From Dehalococcoidia bacterium (GTDB lineage: Bacteria; Chloroflexota; Dehalococcoidia; GIF9; AB-539-J10), in the NCBI GenBank assembly GCA_030605665.1, contig JAUWHW010000026.1, positions 1-40,242 on the forward strand: a stretch of 40,242 bases of DNA, read 5' to 3'. Under the pieces are notes generated by a model. That model was not told the origin of the DNA. It searched no databases and worked only from the letters and a program-made list of their open reading frames with translations. Made by a program: the position numbers and the translations under genes. Positions 29,234 to 38,205 of the stretch are shown here, in pieces (positions within the stretch are counted from its first letter, which is position 1; every line of letters begins with the position of its first letter).

Positions 29234-29276
29234 TTTTAACCTGCCCTGCCCTCTGCTCGAAAACATAGGAGGGAAA

Positions 29277-29513
29277 ATGGCACGAGAGATTAAGGTTTAC
29301 ACCACTCCCACATGTCCCTATTGCAGGATAGCTAAAAAGTTTCTGGATGATAATAGCATCAAGTACCAGGAGTTCAATATAGTTGAAAATAAAGCAGCCC
29401 GCGAAGAAATGATGAGTAAATGTCATTCATTAGCAGTTCCCACAATTTGCATCGATGATGAGGTATTGGTGGGGTTCAACGAGGCGCAGCTTAGAGAGAA
29501 ATTAGGTCTTTAG
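29277..29513 (+). CDS. glutaredoxin-like protein (CPYC)
   Basis: A 78-residue thioredoxin-fold protein with the active site TTPTCPYCRIAKKFL at about 9-23 and the cis-proline in LAVPTICIDDEVLVGF. It resembles the short glutaredoxin-like/NrdH-type redoxins of anaerobes. ATG 29277 follows TAGGAGGG; an in-frame ATG further up lacks a site. It lies 16 bp before an AhpF-like reductase gene, which is its probable electron donor. Confidence 0.88.
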   Translation: MAREIKVYTTPTCPYCRIAKKFLDDNSIKYQEFNIVENKAAREEMMSKCHSLAVPTICIDDEVLVGFNEAQLREKLGL

Positions 29514-29529
29514 CTCGTTAGAGGAAGTC

Positions 29530-30447
29530 ATGTATGAACTGATCATCATTGGGGCTGGTCCCGCCGGGATGACAGCAGCAGTCTATGCAGCGAGGAAGAG
29601 ACTAAAAACGTTGCTTGTCAGCGATAACCTAGGAGGGCAGCCTCTCATCACTGCTGGCGTAGAAAACTATATGGGCTATCAATTCATTGAAGGTTCTGAG
29701 TTGATGCGGAAATTCGAAGAGCAAGTAAAGCAGTTCCCCTTGGATGTGGAAATCAAAATCGGTCACAAGGGTGCAAGCCTGTCTAGAATAGACAGTGGCT
29801 TCGAGGTCAGGACAGACAGAGGCGAAACCTACCAAGCTAAGGCAGCTATAGTTGCCACAGGCAAGCGGCCTCGCCAACTAAACGTTTCTGGGGAGAGGAA
29901 ATTGCTCGGCAAAGGGGTTACCTACTGCGCTATCTGTGATGGCCCGCTCTTTGCTGGTGAAAAGGTCGCCATAATCGGCGGAGGCAACTCAGCTCTGGAG
30001 GCTGCCGATGACATGATTAAAATAGCCGAACAGGTTTATCTAGTATCGCTAACTCCTCTTACCGGTGACCAGATACTAATTGATAAGGTAACTGGCGCCA
30101 GTAACTTGACCATTTTCCTGGAGCATGAGGTTCTGGAGATAGAGGGAGAGAGCCGTGTTGAGGGGATAAAAATAAGGGACTTGAAAAGTAAACAAGAAAT
30201 GGAGCTTGACATTGCTGGTATCTTTATTGAGATCGGACTTAGCCCCAACTCAGAGGCAATGAAGGGGATAACCACTCTAAACCGCCTGGGGGAGGTTGAG
30301 GTTAACTGTGCCAATGAAACTGATGTACCAGGGCTCTTCGCTGCTGGAGACGTTACCAATGTTCCTGAAAAACAGATAGTGGTAGCTGCTGGGGAAGGAG
30401 CTAAATCTGCCCTTCAGGCCCATCGTTATCTTCAGAGATTAAAGTAA
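29530..30447 (+). CDS. trxB: thioredoxin-reductase family flavoprotein, AhpF-like
   Basis: A 305-residue FAD enzyme: GAGPAGMTAAVYAARK at the start, redox centre CAIC at 133-136, second Rossmann motif GGGNSALEAA near 153, and FAD loop GLFAAGDVTNVP near 270. The HRRxxxR motif that lets thioredoxin reductase bind NADPH is absent: the sequence there is YLVSLTPLTGDQILIDKV, which matches the C-terminal module of NADH-using AhpF (ADQVLQDKL). AhpF carries its own thioredoxin-fold domain; here that part seems to be the separate upstream glutaredoxin. NADH preference is inference. Confidence 0.88.
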   Translation: MYELIIIGAGPAGMTAAVYAARKRLKTLLVSDNLGGQPLITAGVENYMGYQFIEGSELMRKFEEQVKQFPLDVEIKIGHKGASLSRIDSGFEVRTDRGETYQAKAAIVATGKRPRQLNVSGERKLLGKGVTYCAICDGPLFAGEKVAIIGGGNSALEAADDMIKIAEQVYLVSLTPLTGDQILIDKVTGASNLTIFLEHEVLEIEGESRVEGIKIRDLKSKQEMELDIAGIFIEIGLSPNSEAMKGITTLNRLGEVEVNCANETDVPGLFAAGDVTNVPEKQIVVAAGEGAKSALQAHRYLQRLK

Positions 30448-30470
30448 TATAAATGAGGAGGATTTGAATT

Positions 30471-30962
30471 ATGGGGATATTGTTTTCTGGTAGTGAGATG
30501 GTTAACATCGCTCTAGGTATAGAGAGGAACGGGATTGCCTACTACGAGTCACTTGCTAAATCCACCACGGATACTTCGCTGAAAGACACTTATAACTATC
30601 TGGCTAATATGGAACGAAAACACATGGAAACCTTCCAAAAAATGCTGGACTCCGTAGGCAAGTATCAACCAACATATGCTGGTGAAATTGAGGAGGAATA
30701 TGAACTTTACCTCAGGGCGCTAATTGATAGCGTTGTTTTCCCTGACGATAAAGTAGCTAAAGAAATGGCGAACAGAGCCTCAAGTGAAACTGAAGCCCTG
30801 CACATAGGAATCATTGCTGAGAAAGATTCTATCCTCTTTTACTCAGAGATGCGGAACCTGGTTAGAGAATTGGACTGCCACATCATTGATGCCATAGTTG
30901 GTGAAGAAAAAGCTCACCTAAGACAACTTTCCCAGCTCAAGGCAAAATTACAAAAGGCTTGA
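30471..30962 (+). CDS. rubrerythrin-type ferritin-like diiron protein
   Basis: The 163-residue four-helix-bundle protein has all diiron ligands of the rubrerythrin fold: the glutamate in ALGIERNGIAYYESL, ExxH in NMERKHMETF, the glutamate in IIAEKDSILFYSEM, and ExxH in GEEKAHLRQL. There is no rubredoxin domain. It may reduce peroxide with electrons from the 41-residue desulforedoxin encoded next. A strong AGGAGG site precedes the ATG. Confidence 0.85.
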   Translation: MGILFSGSEMVNIALGIERNGIAYYESLAKSTTDTSLKDTYNYLANMERKHMETFQKMLDSVGKYQPTYAGEIEEEYELYLRALIDSVVFPDDKVAKEMANRASSETEALHIGIIAEKDSILFYSEMRNLVRELDCHIIDAIVGEEKAHLRQLSQLKAKLQKA

Positions 30963-30989
30963 ATTAAAAACCAAATTAAGGAGGTGAAA

Positions 30990-31115
30990 ATGGGGGTTAA
31001 AAAAGTTGGCGAAAAATATCGCTGTAATGTCTGTGGTAACGAAGTGACGGTGACCAAAGTTGGTGGCGGTACCTTAGTCTGTTGTGGCCAGGATATGGAA
31101 CTAATTAGCTCGTAG
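30990..31115 (+). CDS. desulforedoxin (FeS4, 41 residues)
   Basis: A tiny iron protein, [20 protein letters not shown] then [12 protein letters not shown], with the four-cysteine pattern CxxC and CC of desulforedoxin and of the N-terminal domain of desulfoferrodoxin. It binds a single Fe in a tetrahedral cysteine site and carries electrons. A consensus AAGGAGGTG precedes the ATG. The matching superoxide reductase without this domain is encoded 6.7 kb downstream, so the two halves of a 2Fe desulfoferrodoxin exist here as separate genes. Confidence 0.88.
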
Positions 31116-31208
31116 CCTGCGCCAAAGCTTGCAAACTGGAGTTAGACCAGTCACCGGGGAAATTCTTTTAGAAATAGACGCAACTAAATTACAAAGGAGA
31201 TAATTTAA

Positions 31209-31631
31209 ATGGCGATTGACAAACAAAAGCTTATCGAGCTATTGAACAAGGATTTAGGCTTGGAGTATACAGCTATGGTGCAGTATGTACAACACAGTGG
31301 CATCATGACTGGGGCTGCCTATGGAGATATCATCAAGGAATTGAAAATCCATGCCAATGAAGAGCTACAGCATGCCCTCATGCTAGCTGATCAAATAGAC
31401 TTCCTTGATGGCATCCCTACTGTTGAAATGCCACCAGCGAAGGTATCTGCCGATAATCAGAAGATGTTGGAGCAGGATCTTGAAGGCGAGGAAGATGCTA
31501 TATCTCGATATAAGGCACGCATTTCCCAAGCTGAAGAGCTCCAGGAGTTGGCTTTAGCCCAGAAGCTAAGGGAGATTTTGGCTGTAGAGCAGGAGCATGC
31601 TATGGACTTGAAGCAGGCCCTCGGGAAATAA
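31209..31631 (+). CDS. bacterioferritin-like ferritin
   Basis: A 140-residue ferritin-fold protein: LGLEYTAMVQYVQHSGIM, ExxH in ANEELQHALML, the glutamate in EGEEDAISRYKARI and ExxH in AVEQEHAMDL. It is shorter than classical bacterioferritin (about 155) and resembles the Dps/bacterioferritin-like proteins of anaerobes. Role: iron oxidation and storage or peroxide removal. A clear AAAGGAG site precedes the ATG. Confidence 0.85.
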   Translation: MAIDKQKLIELLNKDLGLEYTAMVQYVQHSGIMTGAAYGDIIKELKIHANEELQHALMLADQIDFLDGIPTVEMPPAKVSADNQKMLEQDLEGEEDAISRYKARISQAEELQELALAQKLREILAVEQEHAMDLKQALGK

Positions 31632-31660
31632 AATAGAAAAAAAGCTATAGTAGGTACAAT

Positions 31661-31741
31661 ATGAAGCTTGGGGGCAAGGTAGCTGGGATAACCGGTGCTG
31701 GCTCCAGAAGTTTTGGAAGGAGGTTAATGAATGGGGAATGA
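31661..31741 (+). pseudogene. remnant of a short-chain dehydrogenase 5' end
   Basis: The 26-codon frame reads MKLGGKVAGITGAGSRSFGR and then four residues and a stop. This resembles the N-terminal Rossmann strand and glycine loop of short-chain dehydrogenases (KVAxITGAGSGIGR). No further dehydrogenase sequence follows, because the next real gene begins within it at 31731. Probably the scar of a deletion; chance similarity over so few residues is possible. Confidence 0.45.
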
Positions 31742-32258
31742 ACAGGCTAAAACCATAGAGGCGCTGCAGCTTGCTATTCAGATGGAGGTGGAAGGTAAAG
31801 AGTTCTACCAGCAGGCGAGCCAGAAAAGCAGTAACAAGCTAGCTAAGGAGCTATTTCAAAATTTGGCTAATGAAGAAGATATTCACCGTAAGAAATTTGA
31901 GGAAGTATACGAAGCGGTTAGGAAAGGTCAGGATTGGCCTGATGTGGAACCACCATCTGAGAAGGCGAAAAGTCTTAAGTCTATATTTGCCGAAGCCACT
32001 AAAGAGCTAGGTAGTAGAATTAAAGTGGCCGAGTCTGAACTTGAAGCTGTTAAGACAGCCATGGATATGGAGATCAAGACTTACGATTTGTACCACTCCC
32101 GAAGCGAGCAAAGCACACTTCCTCGGGAAAAGCGGTTCTATCAAACCCTGGCTGCCGAGGAGCGAGGGCACCACCTTGCCTTGCTCGACTCCTATGAATA
32201 CTTAACTGACCCGGCAGGATGGTTTGTTATGAAAGAGCACCGTCTGGACGGAATCTAA
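31731..32258 (+). CDS. rubrerythrin-like ferritin-fold protein
   Basis: The 175-residue protein has two diiron half-sites: MEVEGKEFYQQAS with ExxH in ANEEDIHRKKF, and MDMEIKTYDLYHSRSE with ExxH in AAEERGHHLALL. The two halves are separated by a 50-residue linker with a helical stretch. No rubredoxin domain is present. It belongs to the COG1633-like rubrerythrins and is the third diiron protein in a row. The site GGAAGGAGG precedes the ATG. Confidence 0.82.
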   Translation: MGNEQAKTIEALQLAIQMEVEGKEFYQQASQKSSNKLAKELFQNLANEEDIHRKKFEEVYEAVRKGQDWPDVEPPSEKAKSLKSIFAEATKELGSRIKVAESELEAVKTAMDMEIKTYDLYHSRSEQSTLPREKRFYQTLAAEERGHHLALLDSYEYLTDPAGWFVMKEHRLDGI

Positions 32259-32437
32259 ACAAGCAACAAGAACATTGGAGGCAAGAAATATGCTAGAGAT
32301 TAAGCAGTTAAGCGTAGCGGTAGAGGGTTGCGGGAAGCATGTTGAAGCGGCATGGCTTCCAATATCTCTGCAATGTATCTGGGGTATGACGGCGTGGAGT
32401 AACGCAGACTACGAGGTGACGATTTAAGAGGAAGGAA
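32259..32437 (+). pseudogene. gap with a sufC-like remnant (32291-32428)
   Basis: A frame with a good ribosome site (TTGGAGG) starts MLEIKQLSVAVEG, the N-terminus of the Fe-S assembly ATPase SufC, and ends with NADYEVTI, which resembles the HPxYEVT segment just after the SufC Walker A. The middle, including Walker A, is replaced by unrelated residues. It looks like an internally deleted and decayed sufC, set directly before the Fe-S genes nifS and iscU. The similarity is short, so this stays tentative. Confidence 0.42.
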
Positions 32438-33625
32438 ATGAGGAAGGTTTATCTGGACAACGCTGCTACCACTCTAATATTGCCCGAAGTGCTGGAGGCT
32501 ATGCTGCCTTATCTCAAGGATGCTTATGGCAACCCCCAGTCTCTGCACGACTGGGGAGATGAGGCCAGGGAAGCCATAGAGGAAGCCCGCGGTAAGGTAG
32601 CAGCCCTCATCGGCACTCAGCCGGAGGAGATCATCTTCACCTCCAGTGGCACTGAGTCGAACAACTTCGCTATTAAGGGGTTGGCGACAGCCCAGCAAGC
32701 TAAGGGTAAGCATATTGTCGTTTCAGCTATTGAGCACTTCTCGGTATTGCATTCCGCCAGAACCCTGCAGAAATGGGGTTTCGAGATAACCCAGGTTCCG
32801 GTGGACAGGCACGGGCTGGTGGACCCCAATGAAGTAGCTCGAAGCCTCAGGAAGGACACGGTTCTTGTCTCCGTCATGCATGCCAATAGCGAGGTGGGTA
32901 CCATCCAGCCTATTAGGGAGATAGCAGGGTTGGTAAAGGAAGTTGGGGCTGTCTTCCACACCGACGCTGTAGCAGCCGCTGGCACTATTCCAGTGGATGT
33001 CAGGGAACTGGGGCTGGACGCGCTGAGCTTGGCTGGTAACCAGTTTTATGGGCCCAAAGGGGTTGGCGCTCTCTGGCTCAAGAGGGGGGTGCGCATTATC
33101 CCCTTCCTCGACGGTGGGGTGCAAGAGGGAGGGCGGAGGGCCGGGACAGAGAATGTGCCTGCAATTGTGGGTCTAGGAAAGGCTGCTGAACTGGCCAAAG
33201 CGGAGATGGAGTCCAGGATGGACCACCTCTTAGCCCTGCGCGACAGGTTGATCGGGGGCCTGCTGTCCCGAATCGAGCATGTGGTCCTCACCGGACATCC
33301 CACCCAGCGTCTCCCCGGCAATGCCAGCTTCTGCGTCGAGTTCATTGAAGGGGAGGCGATGCTCATGCTATTAAATCAGCGGGGAATAGCAGTATCCAGC
33401 GGCTCAGCCTGCACCTCCAGGGCTCTCAAAGCCTCACATGTGCTTACCGCTATGGGGATTCCTCCCGAAGTAGCTCAGGGGTCGCTTCTCTTCAGCTTTG
33501 GTTGGGAAAATACCGAGGAGGATGTTGACTACGTATTAGAGGCACTGCCGCCCATTGTGGACAGGCTGCGGCAGATGTCACCACTATATGCCAAATTCTT
33601 AAGAAAACATAAGGGAGGGAAATAG
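32438..33625 (+). CDS. nifS: NifS/IscS-family cysteine desulfurase homologue lacking the PLP lysine
   Basis: The 395-residue fold-type I protein has the usual landmarks: YLDNAATT at the start, SSGTESNNFAIKG near 68, AIEHFSVL near 98, HANSEVGTIQPI near 148, HTDAV at 174-178 and the substrate cysteine in SGSACTSRALKASH (Cys325). The cofactor lysine is missing: where IscS has S-x-H-K-x-YGPKG, this protein has AGNQFYGPKG, so His and Lys are Asn201 and Gln202. The glutamine that contacts PLP (IscS Gln183) is Ala179. It is therefore unlikely to be a standard PLP desulfurase, but it keeps the mobile-loop cysteine. It is followed by iscU one base later. Confidence 0.9.
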   Translation: MRKVYLDNAATTLILPEVLEAMLPYLKDAYGNPQSLHDWGDEAREAIEEARGKVAALIGTQPEEIIFTSSGTESNNFAIKGLATAQQAKGKHIVVSAIEHFSVLHSARTLQKWGFEITQVPVDRHGLVDPNEVARSLRKDTVLVSVMHANSEVGTIQPIREIAGLVKEVGAVFHTDAVAAAGTIPVDVRELGLDALSLAGNQFYGPKGVGALWLKRGVRIIPFLDGGVQEGGRRAGTENVPAIVGLGKAAELAKAEMESRMDHLLALRDRLIGGLLSRIEHVVLTGHPTQRLPGNASFCVEFIEGEAMLMLLNQRGIAVSSGSACTSRALKASHVLTAMGIPPEVAQGSLLFSFGWENTEEDVDYVLEALPPIVDRLRQMSPLYAKFLRKHKGGK

Positions 33626-33626
33626 A

Positions 33627-34043
33627 ATGCCCATTTATAGTGAAAAGGTGATGGAGCACTTCATGAACCCCCGCAATGTGGGGGAAATAGAAGACGCTGA
33701 TGGTATCGGTGAGGTAGGCAATCCCGTATGTGGAGACATGATGACCTTCTATATCAAGGTAGATGATAACCATCTCAGCGACGTCAAGTTCAAGACCTTC
33801 GGCTGCGGGGCTGCCATTGCCGTTTCCAGTATCGTGAGTGAGATGGCTAAGGGGAAGACTCTGGAGGAGGCGAGGAAGATCACGCCGGCGTTGGTGGCTG
33901 AGGGGTTGGAGGGGCTGCCCAAGAACAAGTATCACTGCTCCAACCTCGGCGCTCAAGCCCTGAATAAGGCTATCGATGACTACCTGAAGAAGCAGGGCAA
34001 GAAGATGAAAAGCAAAAAGAGGAGGAAGGATGAAAAGGAGTGA
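33627..34043 (+). CDS. iscU: IscU/NifU-type Fe-S scaffold protein
   Basis: Scaffold on which [2Fe-2S] clusters are built. The 138-residue protein keeps the three cluster cysteines, in GNPVCGDMM, KTFGCGAAIAVSS and YHCSNLG, and the aspartate next to the first. The C-terminal tail is long and very basic (KKQGKKMKSKKRRKDEKE). It starts just after the nifS homologue and overlaps the zinc-ribbon gene by 14 bp, so the three are one translational unit. Confidence 0.92.
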   Translation: MPIYSEKVMEHFMNPRNVGEIEDADGIGEVGNPVCGDMMTFYIKVDDNHLSDVKFKTFGCGAAIAVSSIVSEMAKGKTLEEARKITPALVAEGLEGLPKNKYHCSNLGAQALNKAIDDYLKKQGKKMKSKKRRKDEKE

Positions 34044-34227
34044 AGAGCCAAAGAAAAAGGGGACGAGGTGTTTTTGCCCCTATTGTGAAGAGGAGCTGGT
34101 CATATCCGCTCTACCTTACTGCCAACCTTGTGGCGTGACCTTGCGCTACTGCGTCAGGTGCCAGATAGCGGTGGTGAGGGCGGCTAGGGTCTGTCCCCAG
34201 TGCGGGGGCGAGCTAGAATGGAAGTAA
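34030..34227 (+). CDS. double zinc-ribbon small protein
   Basis: A 65-residue protein with four CxxC knuckles (CPYC, CQPC, CVRC, CPQC), enough for two zinc or iron sites, and a basic N-terminus. It has no known function. Position between iscU and a DsrE-like gene with overlaps on both sides suggests a part in the same sulfur or metal pathway, perhaps as an adaptor. Confidence 0.75.
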   Translation: MKRSEEPKKKGTRCFCPYCEEELVISALPYCQPCGVTLRYCVRCQIAVVRAARVCPQCGGELEWK

Positions 34228-34715
34228 AGAGAGCAGCCATGCCAGAAAAGGTTACCTTGGTGATATTCAGCGGGGAGATGGACAAGGCCCTGGCTGCCTT
34301 CAATATAGCTATAGGAGCTGCCTCTATGGGGATGGAGGTGAGCATGTTCTTCACCTTCTGGGGTCTAAACATCGTCAAGAAGAACCAGGGGCCGATCAAA
34401 AGTCGGGGAATAATGAGGAAGATGCTTAATTTCATGAACCGGGGTGGCTCTGAGAGATTGCCTTTATCCAAATTTCACATGCTTGGCCTAGGCAAGTGGA
34501 TGATGGGGAAGTTAATGCGGGATGCCAAGTTTCCGTCTCTCGATGAGTTGATAGCTATAGCCCGGGAGGCAGGGGTTAAATTTATAGTCTGCACTACCTC
34601 TATGGGGATTATGGGAATCTCCGAGGAGGCTTTCATCCCTGAGGTGGACAGGTTTGCCGGGGTGGCTACCTATCTGGCTGAGGCTAAAGACGGGAAGGTC
34701 AATCTATTTATTTAA
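34218..34715 (+). CDS. DsrE2-like sulfur-relay protein
   Basis: A 165-residue protein of the DsrE/DsrF/TusD superfamily: KVTLVIFSGEMDKALAAFNI, a glycine-rich region with AASMGMEVSMFFTFWGLNIV, and the conserved cysteine in KFIVCTTSMGIMGISEE that would carry the persulfide. This wording is of the DsrE2 subgroup. ATG 34218 overlaps the zinc-ribbon stop; ATG 34239 is the alternative. Next is tusA, the classic partner to which DsrE proteins pass sulfur. Confidence 0.85.
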   Translation: MEVKRAAMPEKVTLVIFSGEMDKALAAFNIAIGAASMGMEVSMFFTFWGLNIVKKNQGPIKSRGIMRKMLNFMNRGGSERLPLSKFHMLGLGKWMMGKLMRDAKFPSLDELIAIAREAGVKFIVCTTSMGIMGISEEAFIPEVDRFAGVATYLAEAKDGKVNLFI

Positions 34716-34727
34716 GGAAGCAGGGCT

Positions 34728-34958
34728 ATGAAAGCAGATGTCACTCTAGACTGCATCGGATTATACTGTCCCATGCCCATTTTTCATACTGCCAACAAGC
34801 TCAAAGAGCTGGGGGCAGGGCAGGTGCTGGAGGTTTTGGCCGATGACAAGGGGATAAAAGTAGATATGCCTGCCTGGTGCCGCGCCACGGGAAATGAGCT
34901 GTTAGATATTGAGGAGGAGGCTGGAGGATACAAGGTTTATATCAGGAAATCCAAGTAA
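34728..34958 (+). CDS. tusA: TusA-family sulfur carrier
   Basis: A 76-residue sulfur carrier with the persulfide cysteine in the CPMP motif (LDCIGLYCPMPIFHTANKLK). Second half: VLADDKGIKVDMPAWCRATGNELL, again standard. TusA receives sulfur from a desulfurase or from DsrE-type proteins and delivers it to cofactor synthesis or sulfur metabolism. The AAGGAAG site precedes the ATG. Confidence 0.92.
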   Translation: MKADVTLDCIGLYCPMPIFHTANKLKELGAGQVLEVLADDKGIKVDMPAWCRATGNELLDIEEEAGGYKVYIRKSK

Positions 34959-34972
34959 GAAAGGAGGGACCA

Positions 34973-35506
34973 ATGGAACTCAAAGGAAGCAGGACCGAGA
35001 AGAACCTGGAGGCTGCCTTCGGCGGGGAGTCACAGGCCCGCAATAAGTATACCTACTTTGCTGCTGTAGCTAAAGAGGAAGGTTTTGAGCAAATCGCCGC
35101 GACATTCCTAGAGACGGCTGAGAACGAAAAGGAGCACGCTAAGAAGGAGTTTGACTTTCTCAAGGGGATTGGAGATACCAAGGCAAACCTGAAAGCGGCG
35201 GCGGAAGGCGAGCACTACGAATGGACTGAGATGTACCCCGAGTTTGAGCGGGTGTCTCGCGAAGAAGGATTCACTGAGATTGCCGATTTCTTCAAAGAAG
35301 TCGCTGAGGTTGAGGAGCAGCACGAAAAGAGATACCTCGCCTTGCTCAAGAATATACAGGAGGGGAAGGTCTTCAAGAAGGATAGGGTGGTCAGGTGGAA
35401 ATGCCGCAATTGTGGCTATGTTCACGAGGGGACAGAAGCTCCCAAGAAATGCCCAGCCTGCGGCTTCCCCCAGAGCTACTACGAGCTACTGGCTGACAAC
35501 TATTAG
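34973..35506 (+). CDS. rbr: rubrerythrin with C-terminal rubredoxin domain
   Basis: NAD(P)H-linked peroxidase of anaerobes. The 177-residue protein has the diiron bundle (AAFGGESQARNKYTYFAAVA, ENEKEHAKKEF, EVEEQHEKRYL) and then a rubredoxin-like end WKCRNCGYVHEGTEAPKKCP with ACGFPQSYYELL. Length is slightly below the classical 190. It lies 14 bp after tusA and 38 bp before the Hrb gene, which could reduce it. Confidence 0.94.
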   Translation: MELKGSRTEKNLEAAFGGESQARNKYTYFAAVAKEEGFEQIAATFLETAENEKEHAKKEFDFLKGIGDTKANLKAAAEGEHYEWTEMYPEFERVSREEGFTEIADFFKEVAEVEEQHEKRYLALLKNIQEGKVFKKDRVVRWKCRNCGYVHEGTEAPKKCPACGFPQSYYELLADNY

Positions 35507-35544
35507 AGAGAAAGGTTCAAATAGTTTAATAAGGAGGGCATAAG

Positions 35545-36234
35545 ATGAATCTCAAAGCTCTATACTTGATAAGCTATGGCCTGTATGTAATAGGTTCCAG
35601 AAAGGGAGACAGGCTCAATGGTCAGACTGCCAACACAGTAATTCAAGTCTCCTCCCAGCCGCCGACTATTTCTGTGTGCATCAATAAGGAAAACCTCACC
35701 CATGAGTTCATTAGGGATAGTGGAGTCTTTACGGTGTCAGTTCTCTCCCAGGACACCCCCTTGAGTCTTATCGGCCGTTTTGGCTTCAAATCGGGAAGAG
35801 ATATAGACAAATTTGATGGTGTCAACTACAGAGTAGGTGAGACCCAATCGCCAATAGTCTTGGACCACACCTTGGCTTACATGGAAGCTAAGGTAACTCA
35901 AGAAATAGATGCGGGAACCCATACCATTTTTATAGGAAAACTCGTAGGGGCGGATGTTATGAAAGAAGGCGAGCCTATGACTTATGCTTATTACCATCAG
36001 GTCAAAAGAGGCACTACTCCTAAGACAGCTCCCAGCTATATTGAGGAGAGAAAGGAGGTAGCACCAAGAATGGCAAAATACAAGTGTACCGTCTGTGGCT
36101 ATATCTATGACCCTGAAAAAGGTGACTCTGATGGCGGAATAAAGCCCGGGACTCCTTTTGAACAGATACCCGATGATTGGGTATGCCCGGTGTGCGGTGC
36201 TGCCAAGAGCGAGTTTGAAAAAATAGATAAGTGA
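35545..36234 (+). CDS. hrb: flavin reductase-rubredoxin fusion (Hrb type)
   Basis: The 229-residue protein joins an FMN-binding flavin reductase domain (about 1-155; [40 protein letters not shown]) to a full rubredoxin (about 175-229; [14 protein letters not shown] and [12 protein letters not shown]). This is the layout of the high-molecular-weight rubredoxin of Moorella, which passes NADH electrons to the flavodiiron protein FprA, encoded two genes on. A consensus AAGGAGG site precedes the ATG. Confidence 0.92.
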
Positions 36235-36247
36235 GAGTGGTGCGGCA

Positions 36248-36637
36248 ATGATAGAAAACCTGAGCAAAGAACAGTTAGAAGGAATATTGGAAGCAATACC
36301 GGTAGAAATTTCTTTCGTAGATGAGAATGAGTTGGTTAAATTCTGGAATAAACACGAAACGAGGATTTTTAAACGGCCGCTTTCTGTGATTGGGAGATCA
36401 GTTCAAAATTGTCACCCAGAACATAGTGTGGGTAAAGTAAACCAAATATTGTCCGATTTTAAGAGTGGTAAAAAAGACGCAGCGGAATTTTGGATAAATC
36501 TCGGGGAGAAAAAGGTATATATTAGATATTTTGCTGTGCGGGATAAAACAGGCAGGTACTTGGGCACATTGGAAGCTACCCAGGATATCACGAAGATAAA
36601 AGAGATTGAAGGAGAAAAAAGACTTTTAGAATATTGA
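36248..36637 (+). CDS. stand-alone PAS-domain protein (DUF438-associated type)
   Basis: The 129-residue protein is a single PAS domain: LEAIPVEISFVDENELVKFW, then GRSVQNCHPEHSVGKVNQIL, EFWINLGEKKVYIRYFAVRD and YLGTLEATQDITKIKEIEGE. This wording is that of the PAS module found at the end of DUF438/hemerythrin-like proteins, but those other domains are absent. It has no output domain, so it may sense a ligand and act on a partner. It sits between Hrb and the flavodiiron gene, suggesting an O2/NO or redox link. Confidence 0.78.
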   Translation: MIENLSKEQLEGILEAIPVEISFVDENELVKFWNKHETRIFKRPLSVIGRSVQNCHPEHSVGKVNQILSDFKSGKKDAAEFWINLGEKKVYIRYFAVRDKTGRYLGTLEATQDITKIKEIEGEKRLLEY

Positions 36638-36648
36638 AGGAGGGGTAA

Positions 36649-37833
36649 ATGAAAGCAAGAGAGATAAGGGCTGGAGTATATTGGGTTGGAGCAGTTGACT
36701 GGGACAGGCGGTTATTTGATGCTCTGATACCCCTTCCCGACGGCACAAGCTATAACTCATATCTAATTAGGGGTAGCGAGAAGACCGCACTTATTGATAC
36801 GGTAGATCCCACTATGGAGGGTGTGTTGCTAAATCACCTGAGGCAACTTGGGGTTGAGAATGTAGACTATGTCATTGCCAACCATGCAGAGCAAGACCAT
36901 TCTGGTGTTATCCCTCAAGTTCTGCGCAAGTATTCCGATGCCAAAGTAGTCACCACATCCAAAGGCAAGGATATGCTCATGGGCCTTTTACTTACCCCCG
37001 AGGATAGGTTCATTACTGTAAGCGATGGTGAAACTTTATCCCTCGGGGATAAAACGCTGGAATTTATCCATGCTCCCTGGGTGCACTGGCCTGAGACCAT
37101 GCTTACATATCTTCAGGAGGACAAGATACTCTTTCCTTGTGACCTTTTCGGCTCTCACTTGGCTACCACGGACTTATACGTAACTGATGAAGGACAGGTA
37201 TACGAATCAGCCAAGAGGTATTACGCTGAAATCATGATGCCTTTCTACACGAGTATCCAGAAACACCTGGAGAAATTAAAAAGTTATGAGATTGACATAA
37301 TCGCCCCCAGCCACGGCCCTATGTATGACAAACCTTCGTTCATCTTGGAGGCGTATCGAAGCTGGGTATTCGACCCGCCCCGAAATATTGTGGTCTTGCC
37401 TTACATCTCCATGCATGGCAGCACGCGTAAGATGGTGGAGCATCTCGTTGGAGCTTTAGCTGATAGAGGCGTGACGGTGAAACAATTCGATCTCGCAGCA
37501 ACTGATATCGGAAAGCTGGCCATGGCACTGGTGGATGCAGCTACTATGGTCATTGGCACCCCAACTGTTCTTGTTGGTCCACATCCCAATGTTGCTTACG
37601 CTGCATTTCTAGCCAATGCCATAAGACCCAGACTTCAGTTTGTCTCTATTATCGGCTCCTATGGCTGGGGCAGCAAAGCTGTGGAACAGCTCAGGGGAAT
37701 GATTCCTAAGCTTAACGTGGAAGTGCTAGAGCCTGTGATTAGCAAAGGATTTCCAAAGGAAGCGGATTTCCAGGCTCTGGACAGCCTGGCTGAAACCATT
37801 GCCCAAAAGCACAAAGACCATGGCTTTGTTTAG
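36649..37833 (+). CDS. fprA: flavodiiron protein (O2/NO reductase)
   Basis: Cytoplasmic oxidase or NO reductase fed by rubredoxin. The 394-residue protein has the beta-lactamase-fold diiron domain with ligands in NHAEQDHSG (about 79-86), HAPWVHWPETM, CDLFGSH and PSHGPMYD, followed from about 250 by a flavodoxin domain with FMN loop YISMHGSTRKM. All ligands are kept. The gene follows the PAS protein by 11 bp with GAAGGAGG before the ATG, and Hrb, the likely donor, is two genes upstream. Confidence 0.95.
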   Translation: MKAREIRAGVYWVGAVDWDRRLFDALIPLPDGTSYNSYLIRGSEKTALIDTVDPTMEGVLLNHLRQLGVENVDYVIANHAEQDHSGVIPQVLRKYSDAKVVTTSKGKDMLMGLLLTPEDRFITVSDGETLSLGDKTLEFIHAPWVHWPETMLTYLQEDKILFPCDLFGSHLATTDLYVTDEGQVYESAKRYYAEIMMPFYTSIQKHLEKLKSYEIDIIAPSHGPMYDKPSFILEAYRSWVFDPPRNIVVLPYISMHGSTRKMVEHLVGALADRGVTVKQFDLAATDIGKLAMALVDAATMVIGTPTVLVGPHPNVAYAAFLANAIRPRLQFVSIIGSYGWGSKAVEQLRGMIPKLNVEVLEPVISKGFPKEADFQALDSLAETIAQKHKDHGFV

Positions 37834-37857
37834 CAGTATTAAAAAAGGAGTGAGAAA

Positions 37858-38205
37858 ATGAAATTCGAGGATATTGTAAAAAACAAGGAGGCTGAAGGGA
37901 AGGAAAAACATATCCCGGTAATCGAGGTTGGCAAGGGGAGGGGTGAGACAGGCGCAGATATTGTGCGTGTGGTGGTAGGCAAAGAGATTCCCCACCCTAA
38001 CACCGTAGAACATCACATTGCTTGGATAGAGCTTTATGGAGTGAAAAAGGACGGGCAGGTAATTGACCTTGGTCGAGCTGATTTTGCACCTTCCTATACC
38101 AACCCCAATGTCAGGCTCCAGATGCCAGTAGAACAATTTAGATCCTTCTGCGCTCTCACATACTGCAACATACATGGCTTATGGGAAAACTGCATAGAAA
38201 TTTAA
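37858..38205 (+). CDS. sor: superoxide reductase (1Fe, neelaredoxin type)
   Basis: Reduces superoxide to peroxide without releasing O2. The 115-residue protein has the catalytic Fe ligands: KEKHIPVIE (Lys and His), HPNTVEHHIAWIEL (two His) and CNIHGLWEN (Cys103, His106). The N-terminal desulforedoxin domain of 2Fe enzymes is absent. It lies 24 bp after fprA, and the peroxide it makes can be removed by the rubrerythrins upstream. AAAGGAGTG precedes the ATG. Confidence 0.94.
   Translation: MKFEDIVKNKEAEGKEKHIPVIEVGKGRGETGADIVRVVVGKEIPHPNTVEHHIAWIELYGVKKDGQVIDLGRADFAPSYTNPNVRLQMPVEQFRSFCALTYCNIHGLWENCIEI

Follow-up and report, generated by a model that had tools for sequence, protein, structure and literature searches.

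The window analyzed here is a stretch of 40,242 nucleotides from a Dehalococcoidia bacterium (contig JAUWHW010000026.1 of assembly GCA_030605665.1), and it encodes a homolog of the cysteine desulfurases IscS and NifS that lacks the lysine to which pyridoxal 5'-phosphate (PLP) is bound, followed in order by iscU and by genes for a zinc ribbon protein, a DrsE_2-family protein and the sulfur carrier TusA (Table 1). The lysine-less protein (P0001) scores 535.7 bits against the NCBIfam model of the cysteine desulfurase NifS (TIGR03402; cut-off 530.75) and 287 bits against PF00266, and the PADLOC models DndA (478 bits) and SspA (475 bits) also match it; by these model matches it is a member of the same wider family. 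Six other lysine-less proteins score 472.7 to 524.6 bits against TIGR03402, all below the cut-off. The cofactor stretch of the window protein is SLAGNQFYGPKG, in which Gln202 stands at the place of the Schiff-base lysine (Lys206 of Escherichia coli IscS) and Asn201 replaces His205, while Ala179, in the preceding strand (HTDAVAAAG), takes the place of the PLP-contacting Gln183. A reading of the sequence made earlier without database searches (the sequence-only reading) had named these three substitutions, an intact loop for the sulfur-carrying cysteine, and a full-length gene with an intact IscU partner one base downstream; each of these claims stands, the mapping of residues 179, 201, 202 and 325 onto homologs included. 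Three further changes come in addition, of Ser203 to Ala199, Arg354 to Leu351 and Asn155 to Ser151.

Table 1. Lysine-less iscS gene of the window, its active-site codons (numbering of the window protein, with the corresponding residues of E. coli IscS) and the genes that follow it
Feature	Position	Strand	Detail
Lysine-less IscS/NifS-like protein	32438..33625	+	395 aa, ATG to TAG; NCBIfam TIGR03402, PF00266
Ser151, codon AGC	32888..32890	+	place of IscS Asn155
Ala179, codon GCA	32972..32974	+	place of IscS Gln183
Ala199-Gly-Asn201-Gln202 codons	33032..33043	+	place of Ser203-x-His205-Lys206
Asn201, codon AAC	33038..33040	+	place of His205
Gln202, codon CAG	33041..33043	+	place of Lys206
Cys325, codon TGC	33410..33412	+	retained loop cysteine (SSGSACTS)
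Leu351, codon CTC	33488..33490	+	place of substrate-carboxylate Arg354
IscU/NifU_N scaffold	33627..34043	+	138 aa; separated from the iscS stop by one base
Double zinc ribbon protein	34030..34227	+	65 aa; PF12773, 27.8 bits (cut-off 27.3)
DrsE_2-family protein	34200..34715	+	longest open reading frame, probable start ATG 34239; PF13686, 172 bits
TusA sulfur carrier	34728..34958	+	76 aa; PF01206, 87 bits; CPxP cysteine C14

Ser203 and His205 of E. coli IscS contact the phosphate of PLP. Arg354 binds the alpha-carboxylate of the cysteine substrate (PMC9978102); for the E. coli active-site residues apart from Ser203 and His205, the roles are those given in PMC9978102 and PMC2854127. Variants of E. 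coli IscS at His104, Asp180, Gln183, Lys206 and Cys328 have lost their activity, the K206A protein retaining a very low rate, and the R354K protein is fully active (PMC9978102). With the loss of the lysine joined by the further losses, normal desulfurase activity of the window protein is predicted from its residues to be very unlikely.

The substitutions belong to a gene maintained by purifying selection. Among the best 120 of 8000 homologs, which are 82-96% identical to the window protein, Gln202, Leu351 and Cys325 are each present in 120, residue 201 is Asn in 118 and Ser in two, and residue 179 is Ala in 117 and Val in three; the ratio of nonsynonymous to synonymous changes per site (pN/pS) between the window gene and five relatives is 0.16-0.24 over 395 codons. 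The absence of the lysine is thus due neither to sequencing error nor to decay of the gene, an explanation that has nothing in its favor beyond the loss of several active-site residues and that, for a full-length gene with an intact cysteine loop, deserves almost no credence.

The wider family was sorted by residue 202, which itself defines the labels lysine-less and canonical, into 50 lysine-less bacterial rows, 119 rows of the Archaeoglobus fulgidus type (P0122-P0241, called archaeal after those members that bear names, the majority being nameless) and 78 canonical rows. All 78 canonical rows have Gln at position 179, His at 201, Arg at 351 and Asn at the place of Asn155. The 50 lysine-less bacterial rows have Arg at 351 in none, Gln at 179 in two and His at 201 in six, and Cys325, His100, Asp176 and Glu152 are at least 95% conserved in each of the three sets. 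Residue 202 is Gln in 43 of the bacterial lysine-less rows, Pro in three, Glu in two and Arg or Leu in the remainder, and it is Asp in the archaeal type. These patterns bear on the idea that the protein is a working enzyme with other chemistry, in which PLP or another ligand would be bound non-covalently and His100 would act as the base for slow desulfuration or a different reaction. The conservation of His100 and Asp176 in every set, together with the residual rate of K206A and the full activity of R354K in E. coli, is what such an enzyme would call for, but no lysine substitutes for Arg354 in these rows, since all 50 bacterial rows have Leu, Val, Ile or His there and all 119 archaeal-type rows have Leu or Val; Gln183, Asn155 and His205 are mostly lost as well; and the variation of residue 202 disfavors any one defined new chemistry. 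No other lysine is fixed across both lysine-less sets: the lysine of YGPKG itself was rejected as a replacement because it is missing in 10 of the 50 bacterial rows, as was K331, which is present in 49 of 50 but absent from the archaeal type. Alternative chemistry is on balance improbable.

The lysine loss marks a large clade and is no local event. A scan of genome contigs, in which the best 80 of 586 confirmed loci were taken (82 IscS reading frames; the counts per group are lower bounds, and the canonical genes sampled are those closest to the lysine-less clade), found the lysine-less gene in 28 of the 80 loci. The records of these 28 are titled Dehalococcoidia or Chloroflexi, Anaerolineales, Deltaproteobacteria (an old class name), Geothermincola (Actinomycetota), Acidobacteria, Scalindua (Planctomycetota), another Planctomycetota, Nitrospirae and Aminicenantes, so that the bacterial genes cover about seven phylum-level groups. 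One locus titled Deltaproteobacteria (L002) is probably a mislabeled bin, because its IscS is 81% identical to that of the window and branches among Dehalococcoidia rows. Within the Dehalococcoidia (the class of genome G001), the lysine-less gene occurs in 20 of 89 genomes, which were requested at completeness 90, per-genome values not being given; 19 of the 20 have matches of at least 61% identity and one has a partial match. One gene from each of the 20 was read and the lysine is absent in every case, while the loci read at 58% identity or less carry the His-Lys pair. Seven of the 89 genomes (1.0-1.5 Mb) have no match to the window protein at E <= 1e-20, so that at this threshold no IscS-, NifS- or SufS-like gene is present in them. 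Among the 61 genomes of the class to which a Thermodesulfovibrio-record genome belongs, the best 30 loci are all lysine-less, and in a sample of an Acidobacteriota class (60 genomes) 21 of the best 30 are.

In a tree of 92 rows computed with columns 179 and 199-202 excluded, the 41 bacterial lysine-less rows form one clade, with a support of 99 by the Shimodaira-Hasegawa-like approximate likelihood ratio test (SH-aLRT); the A. fulgidus type, with 12 rows, forms another (SH-aLRT 100), and the two group together (SH-aLRT 92) against 39 canonical rows. A second tree with SufS outgroups and other rows (86 in total), from which columns 151, 179, 199, 201, 202 and 351 were excluded, gives 99 for the bacterial clade and 100 for the archaeal type but 33 for their union. 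A single loss of the lysine before the split between the bacterial and archaeal proteins is favored, and no more than favored because of the drop in support for the union when the SufS outgroup is used.

The genes around the lysine-less iscS differ from those around its canonical relatives. Reading frames on the same strand within 3 kb were surveyed around 122 iscS genes (45 lysine-less, 77 canonical) with hidden Markov models built from window genes, or for mnmA and rrf2 from genes of the loci, and extended by one round of matches; the flanking DNA available reached 10 kb at most in the first set, about 4 kb in other samples and about 1.5 kb for the Thermodesulfovibrio and Acidobacteriota classes, and was shorter at contig ends. 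The tusA gene lies near 32 of 45 lysine-less but 0 of 77 canonical genes, a DrsE_2 gene near 24 versus 1, and a zinc ribbon gene near 29 versus 1; the last two are neighbors typical of the Dehalococcoidia. The reverse holds for mnmA, whose product uses IscS-derived sulfur (1 of 45 versus 28 of 77), and for the Rrf2-type regulator (8 of 45 versus 44 of 77), while iscU is found near 38 of 45 and 56 of 77. The tusA association appears both in the Dehalococcoidia (21 of 28 versus 0 of 25) and outside them (11 of 17 versus 0 of 52, one canonical gene titled Dehalococcoidia, L051, being counted outside), and it persists when the same set is limited to loci with flanks of 1.5 kb or more in each direction (25 of 33 versus 0 of 65). 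At Dehalococcoidia loci collected after the tusA hypothesis had arisen, tusA is near 14 of 17 lysine-less genes. In the Thermodesulfovibrio class tusA is upstream in 29 of 30 loci, with iscU detected downstream in 28 of these, and 28 of the 30 loci read have a compact rrf2-tusA-iscS-iscU block; an iscU-like gene is also beside 14 of 20 canonical genes read in that class. In the Acidobacteriota class tusA is downstream in 6 of 21 lysine-less loci. An additional 29 canonical genes, 16 of them from genomes with a verified lysine-less gene, have no tusA nearby. Pooled after removal of three duplicates found by identity, the counts for a nearby tusA are 65 of 93 among lysine-less genes and 0 of 106 among canonical ones; Fisher tests on such counts disregard kinship, and their values are therefore not given as probabilities. 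At lysine-less loci tusA may follow iscU, precede iscS or come immediately behind iscS, which is not the pattern of one fixed operon. The CPxP cysteine is present in 32 of 32 TusA proteins of lysine-less loci and is C14 in the window. In the Dehalococcoidia, iscU usually has the lysine-less gene as its neighbor: 26 of 28 lysine-less genes have iscU within 3 kb, and 7 of 25 canonical ones do.

In the E. coli and textbook scheme, sulfur flows from IscS to TusA. TusA of E. coli binds helix 2 of IscS, and changes W45R, E49A and those at Asp52 abolish binding (PMC2854127). The window protein has Asp41, Glu45 and Glu48 at the places of Trp45, Glu49 and Asp52, keeping the acids and not the tryptophan. 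Glu or Asp occupies the place of Glu49 in 34 of 44 lysine-less versus 9 of 77 canonical proteins, and most proteins of either set have an acid at the place of Asp52. The most economical reading of these observations is a PLP-free IscS that takes sulfur from TusA. Such a protein would no longer withdraw sulfur from cysteine; it would dock IscU and use Cys325 to accept sulfur or to ligate a cluster for a time, while TusA would bring sulfane sulfur on its CPxP cysteine and pass it to IscS, the reverse of the direction in E. coli. TusA itself might be loaded by the DrsE_2 protein, by low-molecular-weight persulfides or by a canonical IscS encoded elsewhere. That the window protein is a docking partner of IscU and a cysteine donor or ligand, with sulfur coming from TusA instead of cysteine, has about an even chance of being correct. 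The broader proposal, of a bacterial iron-sulfur cluster (ISC) machinery across many phyla that never uses cysteine and passes sulfur from TusA through the loop cysteine of a PLP-free IscS to IscU, is more tentative and falls somewhat short of even confidence.

Several observations weigh against sulfur transfer from TusA. No tusA is nearby at 28 of the 93 lysine-less loci, some of which end at contig edges; within the Acidobacteriota class 15 of 21 are without it. The tryptophan required for TusA binding in E. coli is Asp in the window protein. The acid at position 45 is missing in most archaeal-type rows and fails as a mark of tusA dependence within the clade, being present in 24 of 31 proteins with tusA and 10 of 13 without it, and may simply be inherited. 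Single active-site losses need not be absolute, as the activity of R354K and the slow K206A indicate, and the retention of His100 and Asp176, both PLP contacts in IscS, goes unexplained in the lysine-less sets, where these residues may help to form the pocket or bind a different ligand. Furthermore, a normal sulfur source is usually present, since 16 of the 20 lysine-less Dehalococcoidia genomes contain another IscS- or SufS-like match.

The main rival is a partner of the A. fulgidus type, which would hold IscU and lend the Cys325 ligand while iron and free sulfide from a sulfidic habitat are used directly and tusA is a neighbor with a different task. It has a precedent in A. fulgidus IscS, which has Asp in place of the lysine, shows no desulfurase activity and donates a cysteine ligand to the IscU-bound cluster (PMC7585200); the missing lysine, the inactivity and the ligand had been named in the sequence-only reading. 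Sulfide also feeds E. coli IscU under anoxia when IscS is absent (PMC13015791), it likewise supplies the SMS system (PMC12192291), and the loci without tusA are as this model would have them. It leaves unexplained why tusA, in several gene orders, is near about two-thirds of the lysine-less genes and no canonical gene. The direct use of free sulfide is accordingly rated a serious but rather unlikely alternative. Between the two sources that the sequence-only reading had offered in place of cysteine, DsrE/TusA and free sulfide, the TusA proposal has gained support from the association across loci, and free sulfide is the less likely of the two.

The genomes themselves bear on another arrangement, a heterodimer with canonical IscS in which the lysine-less protein is only the IscU-binding half. 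Less than 2 kb separates canonical and lysine-less iscS genes in three genomes (G031, G005, G101), and about 8 kb does so in a fourth, G007 (the gaps at loci L007, L009, L185 and L193 are approximately 0.7, 1.1, 1.9 and 8.3 kb), and canonical genes of Dehalococcoidia mostly have no iscU within 3 kb, as such a division of labor would predict. However, six genomes (G002, G003, G009, G015, G087, G104) have no lysine-bearing desulfurase among their PF00266 matches at E <= 1e-15, assembly gaps being possible; these matches consist of the lysine-less gene, joined in five of the genomes by a single aminotransferase-type protein that has no SGSAC loop. Genome G002 is a single 1.12-Mb contig with full mnmA and SufBD matches, and full mnmA matches are also present in G003, G009, G087 and G104 but not in G015. 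The chance that the protein functions as half of a heterodimer is therefore slim, below even that of alternative chemistry. Genome G001 was dropped from the group without another desulfurase, as it contains a second partial copy that is not fully readable; it has no full mnmA match and no SufBD match. A link to tRNA-dependent cysteine synthesis was likewise dropped: the SepCysS family NF006810 is found in three of the 89 Dehalococcoidia genomes, every match having one internal TAG, and of the three only G100 has the lysine-less gene. A metagenome-assembled genome has adjacent reading frames (L202:634-2599) that are taken to be SepCysS-like and SepRS-like.

The other products of the window cluster have their own peculiarities. 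IscU retains C35, D37, C60, K101, H103 and C104 and has LPKNK in place of the usual LPPxK motif; LPKNK or LPKQK occurs in 27 of 38 pattern-caught iscU-like reading frames at lysine-less loci, while LPPxK prevails at canonical loci. The DrsE_2 protein scores 64.6 against the NCBIfam DsrE2 model, below the cut-off of 210, and its sole cysteine is C117, counted from the residue after the Met of ATG 34239. The isc genes lie within an island of oxygen-defense and iron genes (29272-38205), with Pfam matches to rubrerythrin-family proteins at 30471, 31731 and 34973, a ferritin-like protein at 31209, a flavin reductase-rubredoxin at 35545 and an ODP-family protein at 36649, and with reading frames presumed to encode glutaredoxin-, thioredoxin reductase- and desulfoferrodoxin-like proteins. 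The G+C content of positions 32001-36000 is 0.516 compared to 0.41-0.46 elsewhere in the window. A PAS_10 protein is encoded near the lysine-less iscS in the window (36248-36637), and at an Acidobacteria locus PAS_10 is fused to hemerythrin upstream of the lysine-less gene (L013:8430-9467). The window yields no Rfam match at gathering scores and no tRNA.

The closest known protein is A. fulgidus IscS2 (PDB 4eb5, 4eb7, 4hvk), the sequence of which was checked against 4eb5. Like the window protein, to which it is 49% identical, it has no PLP lysine, keeps the cysteine loop, has an IscU partner and carries Ala for Gln183, Asn for His205 and Leu for Arg354; unlike it, A. fulgidus IscS2 has Asp in place of Gln at the lysine position and keeps Ser203, and most rows of its type are without the acid at position 45. 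Its best 120 homologs, itself included, have Asn-Asp at the lysine site in 119 cases, and the single Lys-bearing one is letter-identical to the Asp-to-Lys variant in PDB 4r5f. IscS1 of Methanosarcina acetivorans (MA0808), which was recovered in inclusion bodies as a recombinant protein, resembles the window protein by its published description, lacking the catalytic lysine and being encoded beside iscU1 (PMC7585200). Canonical group I desulfurases such as E. coli IscS and NifS share the PF00266/NifS family, the cysteine loop and the IscU partner, but Lys206, Gln183, Ser203, His205, Arg354 and Asn155 are all replaced in the window protein, and the neighbor of its gene is tusA instead of mnmA. 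The Minimal ISC System (MIS) is likewise a bare pair of desulfurase-like protein and scaffold, but it has a cysteine desulfurase (PMC12192291), an activity predicted to be absent from the window protein. The tusA-dsrE2 modules of sulfur oxidizers and the YTD cluster of disproportionators also have a DsrE-family gene adjacent to tusA, with the carrier cysteines kept (PMC4175335, PMC12998232), whereas the window genes are next to iscS-iscU and not to Hdr, Dsr or yedE genes; the available main text of those two papers does not mention IscS.

The archaeal precedent and M. acetivorans IscS1 were thus already described (PMC7585200). Among the papers listed by searches limited to one collection, the titles and abstract openings contain no bacterial clade of lysine-less IscS and no link of such a protein to tusA; within that literature, the extent of the bacterial clade, its loss of Arg354 and Asn155, and the tusA association are new. 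The window protein passes the NifS cut-off and the source names shown for its best 120 homologs are all desulfurase names, so that reconstructions of sulfur supply in such genomes probably err at the IscS step. If the proposed relay is real, TusA would tell where the sulfur of iron-sulfur clusters originates when the IscS encoded next to IscU cannot use cysteine, and the relay would extend to bacteria a question for which the literature consulted relies on archaeal proteins. The system is open to testing in the Thermodesulfovibrio class because of its compact rrf2-tusA-iscS-iscU block.
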